33,428 nucleotides of DNA, taken from NCBI GenBank assembly GCA_021821045.1, contig JAKACW010000048.1, positions 1 to 33,428 of the forward strand, in the 5' to 3' direction. Source of the stretch: Pseudomonadota bacterium (lineage in GTDB: Bacteria; Pseudomonadota; Gammaproteobacteria; JAADHS01). A model generated the notes under the pieces. It saw nothing but the letters and a program-made list of their open reading frames with translations, was not told the origin of the DNA and did not search any database. A program made the position numbers and the translations under genes. Below, piece by piece: positions 23,041 to 31,179 of the stretch (within the stretch, counting starts at the first letter, position 1; every line of letters begins with the position of its first letter).

Positions 23041-23643
23041 ATGGAAGGACTTACCGTTCGTCAATCGGAAATTCTGCAATTGATTCGCGACCACATCGAG
23101 GAAAACGGCATGCCGCCGACGCGGGCGGAGATCGCCGCCACGTTGGGGTTTCGCTCGGTCAACGCCGCCGAGGATCATCTCAAGGCGCTGGAACGCAAAG
23201 GTGCCATCGAAATCATGCCCGGCACTTCGCGCGGCATTCGCCTGATGCAGGAAACCGGATTGCCGGTCATCGGCCGTGTCGCCGCCGGCAATCCCATGTT
23301 GGCCGAGCAGCACATTGAAACGTATTACGACGTGGATCCGCGACTGTTCAAGCCGCGTCCGCACTATTTGCTCAGGGTCAAAGGCATGAGCATGAAGAAC
23401 GCCGGCATTTTGGATGGCGATTTATTGGCCGTGCATCGCACCAAGAATGTCGACAACAACCAAATCGTCGTCGCGCGCATCGGCGAGGAAGTGACCGTCA
23501 AGCGCTTTAAGCGCAAGTGGAAGAATCAAGTTTGGTTGATGCCGGAAAATCCGGACTTCGAAACCATCGTGGTGGATTTGCGCGATCAGAACTTGACGAT
23601 CGAAGGCTTGTGCGTCGGCGTCGTTCGTCCGGGGATGATGTAG
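23041..23643 (+). CDS. lexA: LexA repressor
   Basis: This 200-residue SOS repressor starts at 23041 with GGAGG just upstream. The winged-helix DNA-binding domain is at residues 1-70 ([16 protein letters not shown] ... [13 protein letters not shown]). The self-cleavage site Ala82-Gly83 lies in GRVAAGNPM, catalytic Ser117 in KGMSMKN and Lys154 in VTVKRFKR. All three sit two residues before their E. coli positions, so the protease is intact. RecA-stimulated cleavage should release the SOS genes including itself and imuB, both of which carry matching boxes in this window. Length is normal. Confidence 0.96.
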
Positions 23644-23655
23644 GCGCGAAGGCTT

Positions 23656-23776
23656 GTCGCGGAAGACTCCGCTCTCACGCGGGATGATGCCTTTGTTGTG
23701 AGAGCGGTTTCCTGGCGCGATGACATCCGGCGTGGCAGCGAGCCGCGCAAAGAATCGCGGTTAAAACCGCTCCTAC
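23656..23776. repeat. Three REP-like units between lexA and imuA
   Basis: The units are 23656-23678 (GTCGCGGAAGACTCCGCTCTCAC), 23698-23721 in the opposite sense (starting GTGAGAGCGGTTTCC) and 23754-23776 (ATCGCGGTTAAAACC... ending GCTCCTAC). The first two can pair as a doublet. The third ends 7 nt before the imuA ATG and leaves no room for a normal ribosome-binding site. Confidence 0.7.
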
Positions 23777-23783
23777 GGCAAAT

Positions 23784-24380
23784 ATGGGCTTACATCCGCA
23801 AGTTTGGCGCGCAAATGAGCTTCTTAAAGCCTCGCTGCCCGCCATTCCCACCGGCTTTGCCGCCCTGGATGAACAGTTATCCGGCGGCGGCTGGCCGCAG
23901 GGCGCGCTGACCGAAATCCTGCTAAGCAACGAGGGCATCGGCGAGCTGCGCTTGTTGATGCCGGCCTTGGCGCAACTTAGCCAACAACAACGTTGGCTGG
24001 CATGGATCGCTCCGCCCTATATTCCTTACGCACCCGCGCTGGCCGCCAGCGGCGTGGATCTTTCCCGGGTATTGTTGATTCACCCCCGGGCCAACAAAGA
24101 CGGTTTATGGGCGATCGAACAAGCCTTGCGCTCAGGCACCTGCAGCGCGGTGATGGTATGGCTCGCCGCCAACGATCAACGCTTGCAGCGGCGCCTGCAA
24201 TTGGCCGCCGAAGCCGGACACTGCGCCTGTTTTCTGTTTCGCGATGAACGCACCGCCCTGCGCACATCCTACGCCGCTTTACGTCTGCGCTTGGAGGCGG
24301 TGAATGAAGGATTGAAAGTGCATATTCTCAAACGTCGCGGCGGATGGGCGGGCGCGCCAATTGTTCTAAGCAACCTTTGA
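23784..24380 (+). CDS. imuA: ImuA, SOS mutagenesis accessory protein
   Basis: This 198-residue protein is of the ImuA (SulA/RecA-like) family, which works with ImuB and the polymerase DnaE2 in error-prone lesion bypass. It opens MGLHPQVWRANELL and has IPTGFAALDEQLSGGGWPQG (about residues 21-40), the conserved RecA-like core motif, then ALTEILL and a helical C-terminus ending IVLSNL. The ATG at 23784 is the only plausible start, though it has no clear ribosome-binding site and directly follows a REP unit. There is no SOS box of its own, so it likely depends on read-through from the lexA promoter 140 nt upstream of it. Confidence 0.9.
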   Translation: MGLHPQVWRANELLKASLPAIPTGFAALDEQLSGGGWPQGALTEILLSNEGIGELRLLMPALAQLSQQQRWLAWIAPPYIPYAPALAASGVDLSRVLLIHPRANKDGLWAIEQALRSGTCSAVMVWLAANDQRLQRRLQLAAEAGHCACFLFRDERTALRTSYAALRLRLEAVNEGLKVHILKRRGGWAGAPIVLSNL

Positions 24381-24411
24381 TTCTCTGGATCTAAACGCTC
24401 TCTACAGCATT

Positions 24412-24523
24412 ATCGCGGAATAATCCGCTCCCACAAAAATGCATACTCCTAGGAGCGGTCATTTAAGCCCCTTGGGTATGGCCGAGAATCTGGCGCTCAT
24501 TCGCGAGCATGCTCGCTCCTACA
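24412..24523. repeat. REP-like units between imuA and imuB
   Basis: A clear unit lies at 24412-24433 (ATCGCGGAATAATCCG... ending CTCCCAC), a partial one at 24450-24466 (TAGGAGCGGTCATTTAA), and a third of slightly different type at 24499-24523 (TTCGCGAGCATGCTCGCTCC core). The last is nearly identical in form to the classic Pseudomonas REP. It ends 16 nt before the imuB SOS box. Confidence 0.68.
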
Positions 24524-24539
24524 TCAAGCACCGTCTAGA

Positions 24540-24555
24540 CTGTATACTTAAACAG
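24540..24555 (+). promoter_or_regulatory. SOS box of imuB
   Basis: CTGTATACTTAAACAG is a perfect CTGT-N8-ACAG LexA site centred about 30 nt before the imuB ATG at 24577. A TATACT hexamer inside the box (24543-24548) may be the -10 element. It shows that imuB has its own LexA-controlled promoter in addition to any transcript from lexA. Confidence 0.85.
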
Positions 24556-24576
24556 TATATAGCTCGGGCGACGGCA

Positions 24577-26022
24577 ATGAATACGGTCAATCAAAAAGCA
24601 TGGCTGAGTCTTTATCTCCCCACGCTCGCCGTGGATGTCTTCAGCCGCGGCCGGGCAGACTCCTCCCCTTTAGCCGTCGCCGAAGGTCAAGGCCACAACC
24701 GGCGCGTGGTGCAGTGCAACGCCGGCGCCTATAACGCCGGTGTTCGCCCCGGCATGAAACTCGGCGCGGCCTTGGCTTTGGAATCGGGTCTGACGTTATG
24801 CGAACGCAACGAACAACTGGAACAGCAAGCCCTGCAGCAATTGGCCGCGTGGGGCTTGGGTTACACCTCCCATGTCAGTTTGAATTTCCCCAGTTGCGTT
24901 CTGCTCGAAGTGGGCGGCAGCCGCAAACTGTTCGGTGATGCGGTGGTGTTGGGACAGCGCATCGCCCAGGAGGTGAGCGCTTTGGGTTATACCGCGCAAC
25001 TGGCCGCGGCGCCCACGCCGTTGGGCGCGTATTGGTTATCGCGTGGCGGGAAAGAGTTGACCGAAGGATTCGCTACGCAAGCGGAATTTGATAAAGCGTT
25101 GGCGTCGTTGCCATTGGACGGACTCGATCTCGCCGCAGCCATCCTCGACGGTTTGAATAAATTGGGCATACGCCGCCTCGGCGAGTGCTTTCAACTGCCG
25201 CGCGATGGCTTGCGCCGCCGTTTCGGCAGAGAATTGTTAGTACGGCTCGATCAAGCTCGCGGCTTGCATCCCGATCCACAGCCGATATTTGTTCCGCCCC
25301 CTGCCTTCAACGCCGAACTCATCCTGCCGGCGGAAGTGTATGATCACGAAGCGCTGTTTTTCGGCGTCCATCGTTTGATATTGGATCTGTGCGGTTTTCT
25401 CGCGGCGCGCGAACTGGGAATGCAGCATTTTCAAATCGAACTGAGCCATCCGCGCTTGGCGCCCAGCGTGCTGCCTATCGGCTTAGTCAAGGCGACGCGC
25501 CGCGGCGAGCATTTGTCTTTGGTTGCGCGCGAGCGCTTGCAACAACTGTCGTTGCCGGCGGCGGTGGAAAAAATTCGTTTGCGCAGCGACGAACTCATGC
25601 CCTTGGCGGCGCGCAATGCCTCCTTGTTCGACCAAAGCCCCGCGTCCGCCATGACCGCCGAAGAATTCATCGAGCGTTTGCGCAGCCGTTTGGGCGATGC
25701 CGCCGTGCAGGGGCTTTGCCAAGTGGCGGAACACCGGCCGGAATACGCCTGGCGCGCCGGCGCACCGGGTGAAAAACAGCCAAGTTATTGCTGTCGCGGC
25801 CGCCCGCTGTGGTTACTGCCGGCGCCGAAACCCCTGCCCCCTCACGTTGCCGCTACGCTGACGCTGCGGAGCACCGCGGAGCGCATCGAAAGCGGCTGGT
25901 GGGATAGTCACGATGTCGCGCGCGATTATTTCGTCGCCCGCGCCGCCGGCGGCGAAACCTTGTGGGTCTTTCGCGAGCGACGGCCGCCCCACGGCTGGTA
26001 TATTCACGGCCTATTCGGCTAG
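24577..26022 (+). CDS. imuB: ImuB, Y-family polymerase-like SOS mutagenesis protein
   Basis: This 481-residue protein is of the DinB/UmuC fold but of the ImuB type, which lacks polymerase activity and links DnaE2 to the beta clamp. The start at 24577 (MNTVNQKAWLSLYLPTL) follows the SOS box; an ATG at 24439 would place REP and box DNA inside the gene. The catalytic acidic residues of true Y-family enzymes are missing at the N-terminus (LYLPTLAVDVF in place of DMDAFFASVE). Family features are NAGVRPGMKLGAALAL, LLEVGGSRKLFG, the little-finger/C-terminal region, and the tail FRERRPPHGWYIHGLFG. No dnaE2 follows, unlike the usual imuA-imuB-dnaE2 order. Confidence 0.93.
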   Translation: MNTVNQKAWLSLYLPTLAVDVFSRGRADSSPLAVAEGQGHNRRVVQCNAGAYNAGVRPGMKLGAALALESGLTLCERNEQLEQQALQQLAAWGLGYTSHVSLNFPSCVLLEVGGSRKLFGDAVVLGQRIAQEVSALGYTAQLAAAPTPLGAYWLSRGGKELTEGFATQAEFDKALASLPLDGLDLAAAILDGLNKLGIRRLGECFQLPRDGLRRRFGRELLVRLDQARGLHPDPQPIFVPPPAFNAELILPAEVYDHEALFFGVHRLILDLCGFLAARELGMQHFQIELSHPRLAPSVLPIGLVKATRRGEHLSLVARERLQQLSLPAAVEKIRLRSDELMPLAARNASLFDQSPASAMTAEEFIERLRSRLGDAAVQGLCQVAEHRPEYAWRAGAPGEKQPSYCCRGRPLWLLPAPKPLPPHVAATLTLRSTAERIESGWWDSHDVARDYFVARAAGGETLWVFRERRPPHGWYIHGLFG

Positions 26023-26250: not shown

Positions 26251-26350
26251 TTTCTAAAGCCTCAATTCTGCGCGGCCGATAGCCTTTTCATACGAAGCAT
26301 CCGCCGTGGCGGGCTGCGGGCTTCCTCCGCAACCCGCGACGCGTAGGACT

Positions 26351-26370
26351 GTGACGGTTGAAACCGTCAC
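26351..26370 (+). promoter_or_regulatory. 9-bp inverted repeat in the cytochrome leader
   Basis: GTGACGGTT (26351-26359) and AACCGTCAC (26362-26370) are exact reverse complements separated by 2 nt. It could be an operator or an RNA stem with its inner pair opened. It is 38 nt upstream of the proposed TTG start. Confidence 0.45.
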
Positions 26371-26389
26371 CCAAGAACAATGTAAGAAA

Positions 26390-26403
26390 CCCTTGTAAGG
26401 GGG
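26390..26403 (+). promoter_or_regulatory. Hairpin overlapping the ribosome-binding site
   Basis: CCCT-TGTA-AGGG forms a 4-bp hairpin whose 3' arm is part of the AAGGGGG ribosome-binding site (26397-26403). The TTG start at 26409 follows after 5 nt. A weak start plus partial masking suggests low or regulated translation. Confidence 0.35.
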
Positions 26404-26408
26404 CCAGG

Positions 26409-29400
26409 TTGGATAAGCACAGCTACCGCGACAATCTTCGATGGCTCATCATTCTCGCCATTGCGCTGCTCGGCAACGTCAGCCTAGTGGCCAATGCGCA
26501 GATCGGCGTGAGCGGTTTCGATCACACCAGCACAGGCTTTGCGCTCGAAGGTGTTCATGCATCGTTGACTTGCGAGTCCTGCCACGTGCGCGGCGTATTC
26601 AATGGCACGCCGGCCACATGCAACAGCTGTCATAACGGCAGCATCGCCGACGGCAAGCCACCCGACCACATCCCCACCAATGCCGAGTGCGACGTTTGCC
26701 ATAACAATCAAGTAGGCAGTTGGAACTTTTTTGCCGCAGGTTTCGATCATGCGACCGTGACGGGCACCTGCGTCAGTTGCCACAACGGCAGCCGCGCCAC
26801 CGGAAAGAACGCCGATCATGTTCCCACCACGAACACCTGCGACAGTTGTCACCTCACGGCTGCGTGGGTGCCGGTGATGGTCGACCACAGCCAAGTGCGC
26901 GGCACATGCTACGGCTGTCACAACGGCAACATCGCCGGTGGCAAATCGGCCGATCACATGGCGACCACCAACGTGTGCGAGGATTGTCACCGCGACGCTG
27001 CTTGGGTGCCTGTTGTCACCGTGAATCACGCCCATGTGTTGGGCACCTGCGCCAGCTGTCATAACGGCGTGATCGCGCTGGGCAAGACCGCCGCCCATAT
27101 TCCCACCACCGCCGACTGCGAGACATGCCATGACACGTCCGCTTTCAGTGCGGCGGTTTTCACCCACGACAACATCAGCAGCGGGTGCGGCGGTTGCCAC
27201 AACGGCGTGAGCGCCACGGGCAAGACGCCGAACCACATCGCATCGACCTCCGTTTGTGAGGCATGCCATGTCTCGACAGCGTGGGTACCCATCGTCACCG
27301 TCGATCACGCACACGTTATGGGCGCCTGCGCCGTGTGCCACAACGGCACCGCCGCGACCGGCAAGACACCCAATCACATCGCGACCAGCAATGCCTGCGA
27401 GGCCTGTCACGTTAGCAGCGCGTGGATACCCGTGCGCGCGGTTGACCATGGCCAGGTTCAAGGCAGTTGCTCAAGCTGTCATAACGGCACCACGGCGACC
27501 GGCAAGTCGGTCAACCATATTCCGACGACGGCCGAGTGCGACACCTGCCACGCGACGGTTGCCTGGAACACGGCCACTTACGATCACAGCGGCGTCACGG
27601 GCAATTGCACCAGTTGCCATAACGGCACCAACGCGACGGGTAAGTCGGCCAACCACATCTCGACGACCGCGACCTGCGAAGCGTGCCATACCACCATCGC
27701 CTGGGCGCCGACTCGAATCGTCGATCATACCCAGGTGCTTGGCGTATGCTCGGCTTGCCATAACGGCGGCAGCGCAACCGGAAAATCGGTCAACCACATC
27801 CCGACAACGGCGGAGTGCGACACCTGCCACGACACGACGGCGTGGAATACCGCAGTTTTCGACCACACCGGAATCACCAACAACTGTTCCGGCTGCCACA
27901 ACGGCGTCGCCGCCACCGGCAAGAACGCCGCGCACATCAATACCAGCAATACCTGCGAGGGGTGTCATAGCACGACGGCGTTCGCTCCCGCGATAACCGT
28001 CGACCATACGGAAGTCCGCGGCACCTGCGCCAGTTGCCACAACGGCACCCTCGCAACCGGCAAAGCGGCCACGCACATCCGCAGCACCGACCAGTGCGAC
28101 GCGTGCCACGTGACCAACGCGTGGCGTCCGGTGCCCGCGGTCGACCACACCCAAGTGCTCGGCGTGTGCTCAAGTTGTCATAACGGCGCAATCGCGACGG
28201 GCAAATCGCCGAATCACATCGTGACCAGCGACGAGTGCGACACCTGCCATAACACCGTTGACTGGAGCGCCGCGACCTTCAATCACACAGGCATCGTCGA
28301 CAACTGCACCCAATGTCACAACGGCACCAACGCCGTTGGCAAAGCGGCCGCCCACATCAACACGACCACGGCCTGCGAAGCCTGCCATATCACCACCGCC
28401 TGGGTGCCGACGCGCACCGTGGACCATAGCCAGGTGCTGGGCACCTGTTCGAGCTGCCACAACGGCACGACGGCGATGGGCAAAACAGTCAACCATATTC
28501 CGACCGTCGCCGAGTGCGACGTCTGCCACACCACGATCACCTTCAACACGGCCGTGTTCGACCACACCGGCGTGACCGGCAACTGCTTCAGCTGCCACAA
28601 CGGCGTCAGTGCCACGGGCAAGTCGGCCAACCATATTTTGACCAGCACCACCTGCGAGGCGTGTCACGCCACGGCGGCATGGGTGCCGGAATTGCGCGTG
28701 GACCATTCCCAGGTTCAGGGAAGCTGCGCCAGCTGTCACAACGGCACCAGTGCAACCGGCAAGCCCGCCAATCATATTCGTACCACCAACATGTGCGATG
28801 CCTGCCACAACAGCAACGCCTGGCTGCCGGTTCTTCTAGTCGATCACACGCAAGTGCAAGGGGTCTGCTCGAGCTGCCACAATGGCACGATCTCGACGGG
28901 CAAGTCCGTCAATCATGTCGCCACGACGCTGGAGTGCGATCGCTGCCATAGCACGACGGCGTGGACGCCGGCCGGGTTTGATCATACGGGCATAACTGAC
29001 GGCTGCAGCACCTGCCACAACGGAACGACGGCGATCGGCAAATCCGCCGGTCACATCACCTCGACCAATTTGTGCGAAACCTGCCACGCCACCAACGTCT
29101 GGCGACCGGTCCTGCGCGTAGACCACACGCAAGTGCTCGGTGTCTGCTCGAGTTGCCACAACGGCACGACGGCAAGCGGCAAGTCCGCCAACCACGTGCC
29201 TACGACCTTTGAATGCGATCGCTGCCATACCACTAATGCCTGGACACCGGCGACGTTCGACCACACCGGAATCTCCAGCAATTGCCTCAGCTGCCACAAC
29301 GGCACGACGGCGACCGGCAAGTCGGGTAGCCATATCGCCAGCTCCGGCGTTTGCGAAGCCTGCCATACCACGAATGCGTGGGAGCCGGTGCGCACAGTGG

Positions 29401-30260
29401 ATCACGCGCAAGTGCAAGGGTCATGCTCGAGCTGTCACAACGGCACGACGGCAACCGGCAAATCGGGCAGTCACATCGCCAGCTCCAACGTGTGCGACGC
29501 GTGCCACAGCACCAATCGCTGGAGTCCGGTCACCACAGTCGATCACGCCGAAGTTCAAGGCAGCTGCTCGGCCTGTCACAACGGCACCACGGCAACCGGC
29601 AAACCGGCGAACCACATTCAAACCACACAGGAGTGCGATCGCTGCCACAGCAACAACGCCTGGCTGCCGGCCGGCTTCGACCACACCGGCATCACCAACA
29701 ACTGTTCGAGTTGTCATAACGGCACGACGGCCGGCGGCAAGTCCAACAATCACATCAGTTCAAGCAACGTGTGCGAAGCCTGCCACAGCACGACCTCTTG
29801 GCAGCCGGCAGTCCGGGTCGACCATACGCAAGTACAAGGCAGTTGCTCGAGCTGCCACAACGGCAATGCCGCGCAGGGCAAGTCAAGCGGGCACTTCGTC
29901 ACCACACGCGAATGTAACGTCTGTCACTCAACCAATGCGTGGGCACCGGTGACTTATCGCCACACATCGTCGAACTACCCCGGTGATCACAACTCGAGCG
30001 TGACTTGCCGCGACTGCCACGGCGGCAACACGGAAGCGGCGACCTGGACATCGGCAACGTACAGACCCGATTGCGCCGGCTGCCACGCGAATGACTACGA
30101 CGCTGGCGAGCACAGGAAGACTCAATCCCCGTCCACAAACTATAGCGTGTCCGAGCTGCGAGACTGCTCGGGGCCATGCCACACCTACACGGACTCCAGC
30201 CTCACCACGATCGCGAACCGCCGCGACAGCGAACATCGTGCCCGCGACGGGGACTGGTAA
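26409..30260 (+). CDS. Giant secreted multiheme cytochrome c (about 52 hemes) with ten-heme super-repeat
   Basis: This 1283-residue protein starts at the TTG at 26409, chosen because AAGGGGG is 5 nt upstream and it gives a clean signal peptide (LIILAIALLGNVSLVANA, cleavage about residue 30). A TTG at 26358 is an in-frame alternative. I count 51 CxxCH motifs and a final CxxxCH (CSGPCH), roughly one heme per 24 residues. The repeating two-heme unit reads C(E/D)ACHxTxAWxPV, VDHxQVxGxC, SSCHNGTTATGK, SxNHIxTT. Units are 47 residues (VDH type) or 46 (FDH type). Hemes 7-46 form four blocks of 233 residues with order 47-46-47-47-46. Non-CxxCH His in VDH/FDH and NHI occur once per heme, enough for bis-His ligation. 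The C-terminus has three variant heme sites and a basic tail ending HRARDGDW. There is no membrane anchor or other domain. It is probably a periplasmic or extracellular electron conduit or store; no substrate is implied. Confidence 0.93.
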   Translation: MDKHSYRDNLRWLIILAIALLGNVSLVANAQIGVSGFDHTSTGFALEGVHASLTCESCHVRGVFNGTPATCNSCHNGSIADGKPPDHIPTNAECDVCHNNQVGSWNFFAAGFDHATVTGTCVSCHNGSRATGKNADHVPTTNTCDSCHLTAAWVPVMVDHSQVRGTCYGCHNGNIAGGKSADHMATTNVCEDCHRDAAWVPVVTVNHAHVLGTCASCHNGVIALGKTAAHIPTTADCETCHDTSAFSAAVFTHDNISSGCGGCHNGVSATGKTPNHIASTSVCEACHVSTAWVPIVTVDHAHVMGACAVCHNGTAATGKTPNHIATSNACEACHVSSAWIPVRAVDHGQVQGSCSSCHNGTTATGKSVNHIPTTAECDTCHATVAWNTATYDHSGVTGNCTSCHNGTNATGKSANHISTTATCEACHTTIAWAPTRIVDHTQVLGVCSACHNGGSATGKSVNHIPTTAECDTCHDTTAWNTAVFDHTGITNNCSGCHNGVAATGKNAAHINTSNTCEGCHSTTAFAPAITVDHTEVRGTCASCHNGTLATGKAATHIRSTDQCDACHVTNAWRPVPAVDHTQVLGVCSSCHNGAIATGKSPNHIVTSDECDTCHNTVDWSAATFNHTGIVDNCTQCHNGTNAVGKAAAHINTTTACEACHITTAWVPTRTVDHSQVLGTCSSCHNGTTAMGKTVNHIPTVAECDVCHTTITFNTAVFDHTGVTGNCFSCHNGVSATGKSANHILTSTTCEACHATAAWVPELRVDHSQVQGSCASCHNGTSATGKPANHIRTTNMCDACHNSNAWLPVLLVDHTQVQGVCSSCHNGTISTGKSVNHVATTLECDRCHSTTAWTPAGFDHTGITDGCSTCHNGTTAIGKSAGHITSTNLCETCHATNVWRPVLRVDHTQVLGVCSSCHNGTTASGKSANHVPTTFECDRCHTTNAWTPATFDHTGISSNCLSCHNGTTATGKSGSHIASSGVCEACHTTNAWEPVRTVDHAQVQGSCSSCHNGTTATGKSGSHIASSNVCDACHSTNRWSPVTTVDHAEVQGSCSACHNGTTATGKPANHIQTTQECDRCHSNNAWLPAGFDHTGITNNCSSCHNGTTAGGKSNNHISSSNVCEACHSTTSWQPAVRVDHTQVQGSCSSCHNGNAAQGKSSGHFVTTRECNVCHSTNAWAPVTYRHTSSNYPGDHNSSVTCRDCHGGNTEAATWTSATYRPDCAGCHANDYDAGEHRKTQSPSTNYSVSELRDCSGPCHTYTDSSLTTIANRRDSEHRARDGDW
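26976..29771 (+). repeat. Four tandem 699-nt ten-heme blocks inside the cytochrome gene
   Basis: Equivalent Cys codons that open each block lie at 26976, 27675, 28374 and 29073, and again at 29772 where the partial fifth block begins. The spacing is exactly 699 nt every time. Each block encodes five two-heme units in the order 47-46-47-47-46 residues. DNA of the blocks has diverged considerably (by eye about two thirds to three quarters identical between neighbours) but without any net insertion or deletion. Confidence 0.9.
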
Positions 30261-30555
30261 GTTCCATCGGATTCTCAAAACCCGCCCCTTTGCCTGCAGA
30301 ACCGTCGGCACTGACGCCCTCCGGTAGACGCCCGACTGGACTCGGAACCTGTCTTGGTTCTGATCACATTCCTACTGCTGGGATATGGAATAATGGGCGC
30401 GATCTCCGAGTTTGCCAATCAAATAATCCGCGGTTCGTTAAAGGCTACAGACATTCGTCCGTTACATCTTCGACACGAACGGCGATCGCGCCTAGAAAAT
30501 GTGCGCTAACAATTCCGCCAATCGATTAACAAAACCGCGACACGGGAGAAGTACT
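30261..30555. other. Intergenic region after the cytochrome
   Basis: About 295 nt with no gene, no clear terminator stem with T-run and no recognised promoter. The size leaves room for a separate promoter of the rhodanese-like gene, but I cannot point to one. Confidence 0.35.
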
Positions 30556-31179
30556 ATGGGAAGTATTCTGCGCACGACCTCCTCAGTTTTTGCTGCACTG
30601 ACGCTGCTGCTCGGTGCGGCGTTGGCTCACGCCGAAGACGGCGTGCCGATCGGCGAAGCCGCCGCCGCCCAGGAAAGAACCTACGCAAAAGCCGTGAAAC
30701 TGCCTGCCTTCACGATGAACGGGACCAAATTGATCCAAGATCGTGCCATGGCCCTGCCCGAGGCGTTCAAGAATCCGGCCGCACGACTGTGCAAACCGTT
30801 TTGCGTGCAGCCGGCGACGGTCGACGGCGCAACAACAGTCACGCTGGAAGATTTCCCGAAAATGGCCGACGACATCAACTCCGGTAAGATCCTTTTGGTC
30901 GACATGCGCACGCCGGACTGGTACGAGAAAGAAACCCTACCGGGATCGATCAACATCCCCTACTCCGACCTCACTGGGCCGACGACCAAAGCCAAAGCCC
31001 GCATGAACAAATTGCAGGGCAAAGACATCATTGCGTTCTGCAACGGCTGGTGGTGCGGCCAAAGCCCGACCGGCATCAAAGCCCTGCAGCAGTTGGGCTA
31101 CAGCGGAAAGATCTACTACTTCCGCGGCGGCAACCAAGACTGGGCCGATGCCGGGCTGCCATCCGTAAAGCCAAACTAA
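30556..31179 (+). CDS. Secreted rhodanese-like protein
   Basis: This 207-residue protein starts at the ATG at 30556 (GGGAGAAG upstream); an ATG at 30499 would bury the signal peptide. The signal peptide ends ALAHA at about residue 26. A preamble at about 27-95 carries a CKPFC pair (Cys79, Cys83). A rhodanese domain follows at about 95-205: ILLVDMRTPDWYE, then the LPGSINIPY motif, the active loop FCNGWWCGQSP with Cys162 and Cys167, and YYFRGGNQDWADAGLP. Rhodaneses move sulfane sulfur through a Cys persulfide; the extra cysteines suggest persulfide transfer or a disulfide. It acts in the periplasm. It stands between the giant cytochrome and a chemoreceptor. Enzymatic activity is not certain because the loop differs from the standard C-R-x-G-x-R form. 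Confidence 0.88.
   Translation: MGSILRTTSSVFAALTLLLGAALAHAEDGVPIGEAAAAQERTYAKAVKLPAFTMNGTKLIQDRAMALPEAFKNPAARLCKPFCVQPATVDGATTVTLEDFPKMADDINSGKILLVDMRTPDWYEKETLPGSINIPYSDLTGPTTKAKARMNKLQGKDIIAFCNGWWCGQSPTGIKALQQLGYSGKIYYFRGGNQDWADAGLPSVKPN

Follow-up and report, generated by a model that had tools for sequence, protein, structure and literature searches.

The gene at 26409-30260 of the window (the whole 33,428-nucleotide stretch of DNA analysed, which is one whole contig) probably encodes an orphan paralog of the PCC3-type extracellular multiheme cytochromes, whose product would extend, or exchange electrons with, the PCC3 conduits of the same genome. We put the probability of this reading at about 0.7. 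The family identity of the protein, a sequence-based assignment, rests on its two end caps, which are listed here with the other features of the gene.

26351..26370, + strand: perfect 9-bp inverted repeat GTGACGGTT-GA-AACCGTCAC, 38 bp 5' of the start codon
26392..26408, + strand: putative ribosome-binding region (AAGGGGG) 5' of the TTG start, read from the sequence
26409..30260, + strand: 52-site multiheme cytochrome c gene, probable orphan paralog of the PCC3 extracellular cytochromes
26409..26498, + strand: predicted signal peptide, residues 1-30 (...SLVANA-Q), without a lipobox cysteine, by eye from the translation
26499..26643, + strand: N-terminal cap FDHTSTGFALEGVHASLTCESCHVRGVFNGTPATCNSCH with the first two heme sites, common to PCC3-type extracellular cytochromes
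29967..30257, + strand: C-terminal cap CRDCHGGNTEAATW...CAGCHANDYDAGEHRKTQ...ELRDCSGPCHTYTD...EHRARDGDW, from alignment A1

The gene and its heme repeats

Translation gives a single intact frame from a TTG start, with 1283 residues and one terminal stop. An alternative earlier TTG for the same open reading frame lies at 26358; the TTG at 26409 has a Shine-Dalgarno-like stretch, AAGGGGG, just 5' of it and is followed by RWLIILAIALLGNVSLVANA-Q, by eye a Sec-type signal. The protein contains 51 CxxCH motifs and one CxxxCH (residue 1253), all of its CH dipeptides fall within these motifs, and shuffles of its composition yielded on average 0.7 CxxCH, with a maximum of 5. The initial annotation was therefore right to count about 52 heme sites, and its description of a signal peptide ahead of an almost pure heme repeat also stands; neither a lipobox nor another membrane anchor is visible. 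That the gene is real and encodes about 52 heme sites is confirmed; that the protein is secreted is predicted from its N-terminus.

The repeat units have 23 or 24 residues and are of two alternating types (NGxxATGKxxxHIxTxxx and xTxAWxPxxxVDHxxVxGx), and the protein matches the Pfam families Cytochrome_C7 and Cytochrom_c3_2. Nearly every unit outside the caps has one further His, so bis-His ligation of every heme would be feasible. The similarity between units peaks at 0.63 at a lag of 10 hemes, compared to 0.49-0.56 at lags 2-8, and the protein thus has a decaheme higher-order repeat. Overall there are 24.7 residues per heme (52 sites in 1283 residues), and T, A, S and G make up 42% of the protein. 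A pattern search for pairs of CxxCH with a single set spacing gave no matches, the chosen spacing not fitting the repeat. AlphaFold models of residues 820-1283 and 31-446, made from alignments of 21 and 23 rows, had pLDDT values of 49.8 and 51.6 and pTM values of 0.23 and 0.24, respectively. With pLDDT near 50 for both segments, the models are too poor to give heme distances, and the single-chain wire suggested in the initial annotation is at most a possible geometry.

A fragmented assembly (140 contigs) and the broken look of some paralogs on another contig, C19, might suggest that the gene is an assembly artefact or a functionless, decaying duplicate. The frame, however, is single and intact, and the longest exact DNA repeat within the gene is shorter than 27 bp, which indicates that the repeat copies are old and could be resolved by the assembler; a repeat-collapse artefact is thus unlikely. 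Together with the substitution pattern described below, these observations make artefact or decay hardly credible.

The inverted repeat in the leader is unique in the genome. It was rejected as a shared operator, since it has this single copy and no equivalent 5' of the seven other cytochrome genes examined. The leader (26290-26420) folds more stably than shuffles (z -2.5), and in the predicted fold the Shine-Dalgarno stretch is partly paired with CCCTT, a pairing that could serve translation control. Rfam, searched with the window and the leader, gave no family at the gathering threshold and one chance-level match.

The gene stands between lexA-imuA-imuB upstream and genes for a rhodanese and a chemotaxis receptor downstream. 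The lexA-imuA-imuB cassette (23041-26022) lies directly upstream. As dnaE2 is commonly next after imuB, the cytochrome gene occupies the place where dnaE2 would stand; dnaE2 is not adjacent. The rhodanese (30499-31179) is encoded 3' of the cytochrome gene on the same strand and has an N-terminal hydrophobic stretch; a PHROGs search with it gave no match. Unlike the gene of a PCC3 extracellular cytochrome, the window gene has no porin, inner-membrane protein or 21-heme cytochrome beside it. Such components are found only elsewhere in the genome, and we have therefore filed the protein as an orphan paralog and not as part of a PCC3 cluster.

End caps, kinship and comparison with known cytochromes

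The initial annotation saw no non-repeat region of note, a view that has to be revised, since the caps at both termini are conserved in this family. The N-terminal cap has the pattern FDHxxTGFxLxGxH... and occurs as a block in nearly all of the complete relatives aligned. The C-terminal cap, some 95 residues that hold the last CxxCH sites and the CxxxCH, is present in 30 of 369 gammaproteobacterial genomes and is 81% identical to that of a 24-heme PCC3-type paralog encoded on contig C126 of the same genome. Identity to this paralog is 63% over the C-terminal 464 residues of the window protein, and a tree built on its last 200 residues places the protein in a clade with the 24- and 34-site proteins of C126 (support 99/97). 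The cap differs from those of the paralogs by 0.135 at nonsynonymous and 0.79 at synonymous sites (the latter saturated), and low nonsynonymous change beside saturated synonymous change indicates an old duplicate maintained by selection. Judged by its sequence, then, the protein is a paralog of the 24- and 34-heme members that arose long ago and has been kept by selection.

As described by He et al. (2017), PCC3 comprises a porin, an extracellular multiheme cytochrome (median 34 sites, record 85), a periplasmic one (median 21) and, in the inner membrane, a protein that carries SGxxG and two WX3HX13H motifs (PMC5566968). Its extracellular cytochromes have 22-39 residues per heme, a low value being taken as the mark of a conducting wire (PMC5566968), and AlphaFold models of PCC3 proteins from the Gallionellaceae pangenome are described as long and mostly linear (PMC10734462). 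The window protein resembles these cytochromes in its 23-24-residue heme repeats, rich in T, A, S and G, and in its low number of residues per heme, which falls within the reported range; its 52 hemes are above the reported median and below the maximum. It also has the same caps as, and the homology described above to, cluster-encoded members, the C126 cluster being assigned to PCC3 by gene order and motifs. The heme number is neither new nor as rare as the initial annotation implied: cytochromes with 63 and 85 hemes were published in 2017 (PMC5566968), and the genome itself encodes a 73-site relative.

The periplasmic 21-heme cytochrome of PCC3 clusters matches the same two broad Pfam families as the window protein, but it has a constant 21 sites in the loci examined, begins with MPG..I.GHA..E..C..CH and lacks the common C-terminal cap. 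This difference bears on whether the window protein could be a periplasmic reservoir or a periplasm-spanning relay that never appears at the surface. Its signal peptide, the lack of an anchor and the lack of an adjacent porin would all suit such a location, and PCC3 cytochromes have been proposed to act as capacitors (PMC10734462). Against this, the caps are those of the predicted extracellular subunit; the periplasmic subunit with 21 hemes has another N-terminus and another end. We regard a purely periplasmic role as unlikely and prefer assignment to the extracellular type.

The MtrA/DmsE-type decaheme model TIGR03508 scores 202.8 bits (cut-off 192.2) over the whole window protein, a score that is the sum of many repeat matches. 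Several of the CxxCH sites align in register with PDB 6r2q chain A, which we take to be MtrA (the record names it otherwise). Proteins of this type have 10 sites, compared to 52 in the window protein, and the genome offers no porin partner, as the MtrB/PioB porin model PF11854 has no match in it. A conduit of the MtrCAB type was rejected because the genome has no MtrB.

OmcS, OmcE and OmcZ, the cytochromes to which the initial annotation compared the protein, are polymeric with 4-8 hemes per subunit. They have in common with the window protein many c-type hemes and a proposed long-range conduction, but they are not its kin: sequence searches of the PDB (E 0.01-0.1) returned MtrA/MtrC-type decahemes and nothing described as OmcS, OmcE or OmcZ, and its relatives are the PCC3 extracellular cytochromes. 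It has to be asked whether the protein might nevertheless polymerise into, or sheathe, an extracellular filament like theirs. Profile A2 gave a weak match (E 0.0012) to 8e5g, a short c-type cytochrome chain of 262 aa, for which CxxCH alone could suffice. The searches of solved structures gave no match to any of the three filament proteins and the single-chain repeat already provides a chain of hemes, making such a filament very unlikely.

PCC3-type loci and further giant cytochromes

The genome of origin (4.5 Mb, 140 contigs, 98% complete) was searched for further giants. Contig C126 encodes, in order, a 21-heme protein (561 aa), 24-, 34-, 73- and 37-site proteins and a 1098-residue TPR/beta-barrel protein, while C135 encodes a 42-site protein and then a 785-residue barrel, and C91 a lone 35-site protein. 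On C19 there are broken-looking cytochrome pieces fused to PKD domains. With the window protein, the tally is at least seven giant cytochromes (24, 34, 37, 73, 42, 35 and 52 sites), alongside two porins and a single recognised partner of 21 hemes. The inner-membrane proteins of C126 and C135 each have two WX3HX13H motifs and one SGxxG, and the two porins match the porin of a Ca. Thiodiazotropha cluster (E 5e-95 and 5e-68). Assigned in this way by gene order, heme numbers and motifs, and not by alignment to published PCC3 proteins, the genome is taken to hold two PCC3-type loci.

Three side observations concern these contigs and one other. The C19 pieces (L049, 3468-6710) include an in-frame TAG that was read through in the search, and are likely a decaying paralog. 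The 73- and 37-site cytochromes of C126 (L045, 4783-13424) have a different common C-terminus, with long runs of proline and a tail of Gly and His (GGGGGGHGGGH), which is possibly a surface or metal-binding end. On contig C116, a protein of the RCC1/fibronectin type with 1039 aa (L050, 3975-7094) has two CxxCH and one stretch of the same cytochrome repeat, as though a unit of that repeat had entered a different extracellular protein by insertion.

One gene order recurs in other gammaproteobacterial genomes, those of Ca. Thiodiazotropha among them: a membrane protein of about 300 residues is followed by a 21-heme cytochrome, then by a giant with 16-70 sites and finally by a barrel. This order matches PCC3 in gene order, heme numbers and inner-membrane motifs as He et al. 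define them. Beside most of the PCC3-type clusters examined, an ankyrin-repeat protein and an FAD/4Fe-4S oxidoreductase are encoded divergently on the opposite strand (L032, 1778-5138; L046, 7669-11853; and equivalent loci); neither is named in the PCC3 description examined. Orphans similar to the window protein, with the same cap and with 38, 44 and 46 sites, were found in two further gammaproteobacterial genomes, and for one of these a normal PCC3 cluster was confirmed. In that genome, G102, the surface protein of the cluster has 22 sites (L067) and the lone proteins have 38 and 44 (L066 and L068); for the other, G057, the comparison covered its lone 46-site protein (L075).

The giants also differ in the period of their blocks, which is 10 hemes in the window protein, 12 in the 73-site protein, 4 in L051 and 18 in Thiodiazotropha. 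These differences point to independent growth by tandem duplication. In the PCC3 papers examined, we found described neither the different block periods nor recurrent porin-less paralogs of the surface type, which here extend to one further genome with a confirmed normal cluster.

Proposed role

Most likely, the window protein would extend the extracellular heme relay away from the PCC3 conduit. It would be exported by Sec, as the signal peptide seen by eye suggests, loaded with heme in the periplasm by cytochrome c maturation, and delivered to the cell surface. There, electrons would be relayed or stored along closely packed bis-His hemes and exchanged with the C126 and C135 conduits (inner-membrane b-type protein, periplasmic 21-heme wire, porin and extracellular cytochrome), adding reach or capacity. 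The role of conduit or electron store put forward in the initial annotation would agree with the PCC3 literature, which had earlier arrived at the same likeliest role (PMC5566968, PMC10734462). This overall reading is weakened by the missing gene neighbourhood that defines the system and by the lack of a lipobox or other visible anchor. It is weakened too by the PCC3 record itself: the function of the system has never been verified (PMC12442390), and proteomes of Sideroxydans ES-1 did not show its extracellular cytochrome (PMC12016527).

The window protein might instead be an interchangeable subunit: under some conditions it would replace the 24-, 34- or 42-heme subunit by docking in one of the two PCC3 porins of the genome, and the conduit would become longer. 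Both of its end caps match those of cluster-encoded subunits, and against at least six such cytochromes the genome search found only two porins of this kind; the C126 cluster, however, already has four extracellular-type cytochromes for one porin. We consider docking of this kind possible but doubtful and retain the orphan that extends the relay as the preferred reading.

As to direction, we would guess that electrons more likely flow inward, by uptake from, for example, Fe(II) or a mineral, in an organism with RuBisCO genes. Electron uptake for autotrophy seems a reasonable guess for the setting, as RuBisCO large-subunit genes are present in the genome and dsrA, soxB and MtrB are not found above the cut-off. 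Sulfur oxidation was rejected as the donor pathway, the dsrA and soxB models giving only sub-cut-off matches in the genome.

The PCC3 cytochromes rank with the largest bacterial heme wires so far proposed, and at least seven giants against two porins and one recognised 21-heme protein in one genome show that duplication and changes in size of the surface subunit have gone on without the conduit. Were the orphans to plug into one common conduit, the number of hemes would become a variable, with length set against reach, rate and charge storage. More tentatively, some Gammaproteobacteria may keep porin-less "satellite" giants (38-52 hemes) with PCC3 surface caps as swappable single-chain wires that lengthen one shared conduit outward, each with its own history of growth by tandem duplication of differently sized heme blocks; we offer this as a speculation. 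Another gammaproteobacterial metagenome-assembled genome (L031, 3032-13796) encodes adjacent cytochromes of 79 and at least 51 sites, with Gly-rich tails, near the record of 85 from 2017.
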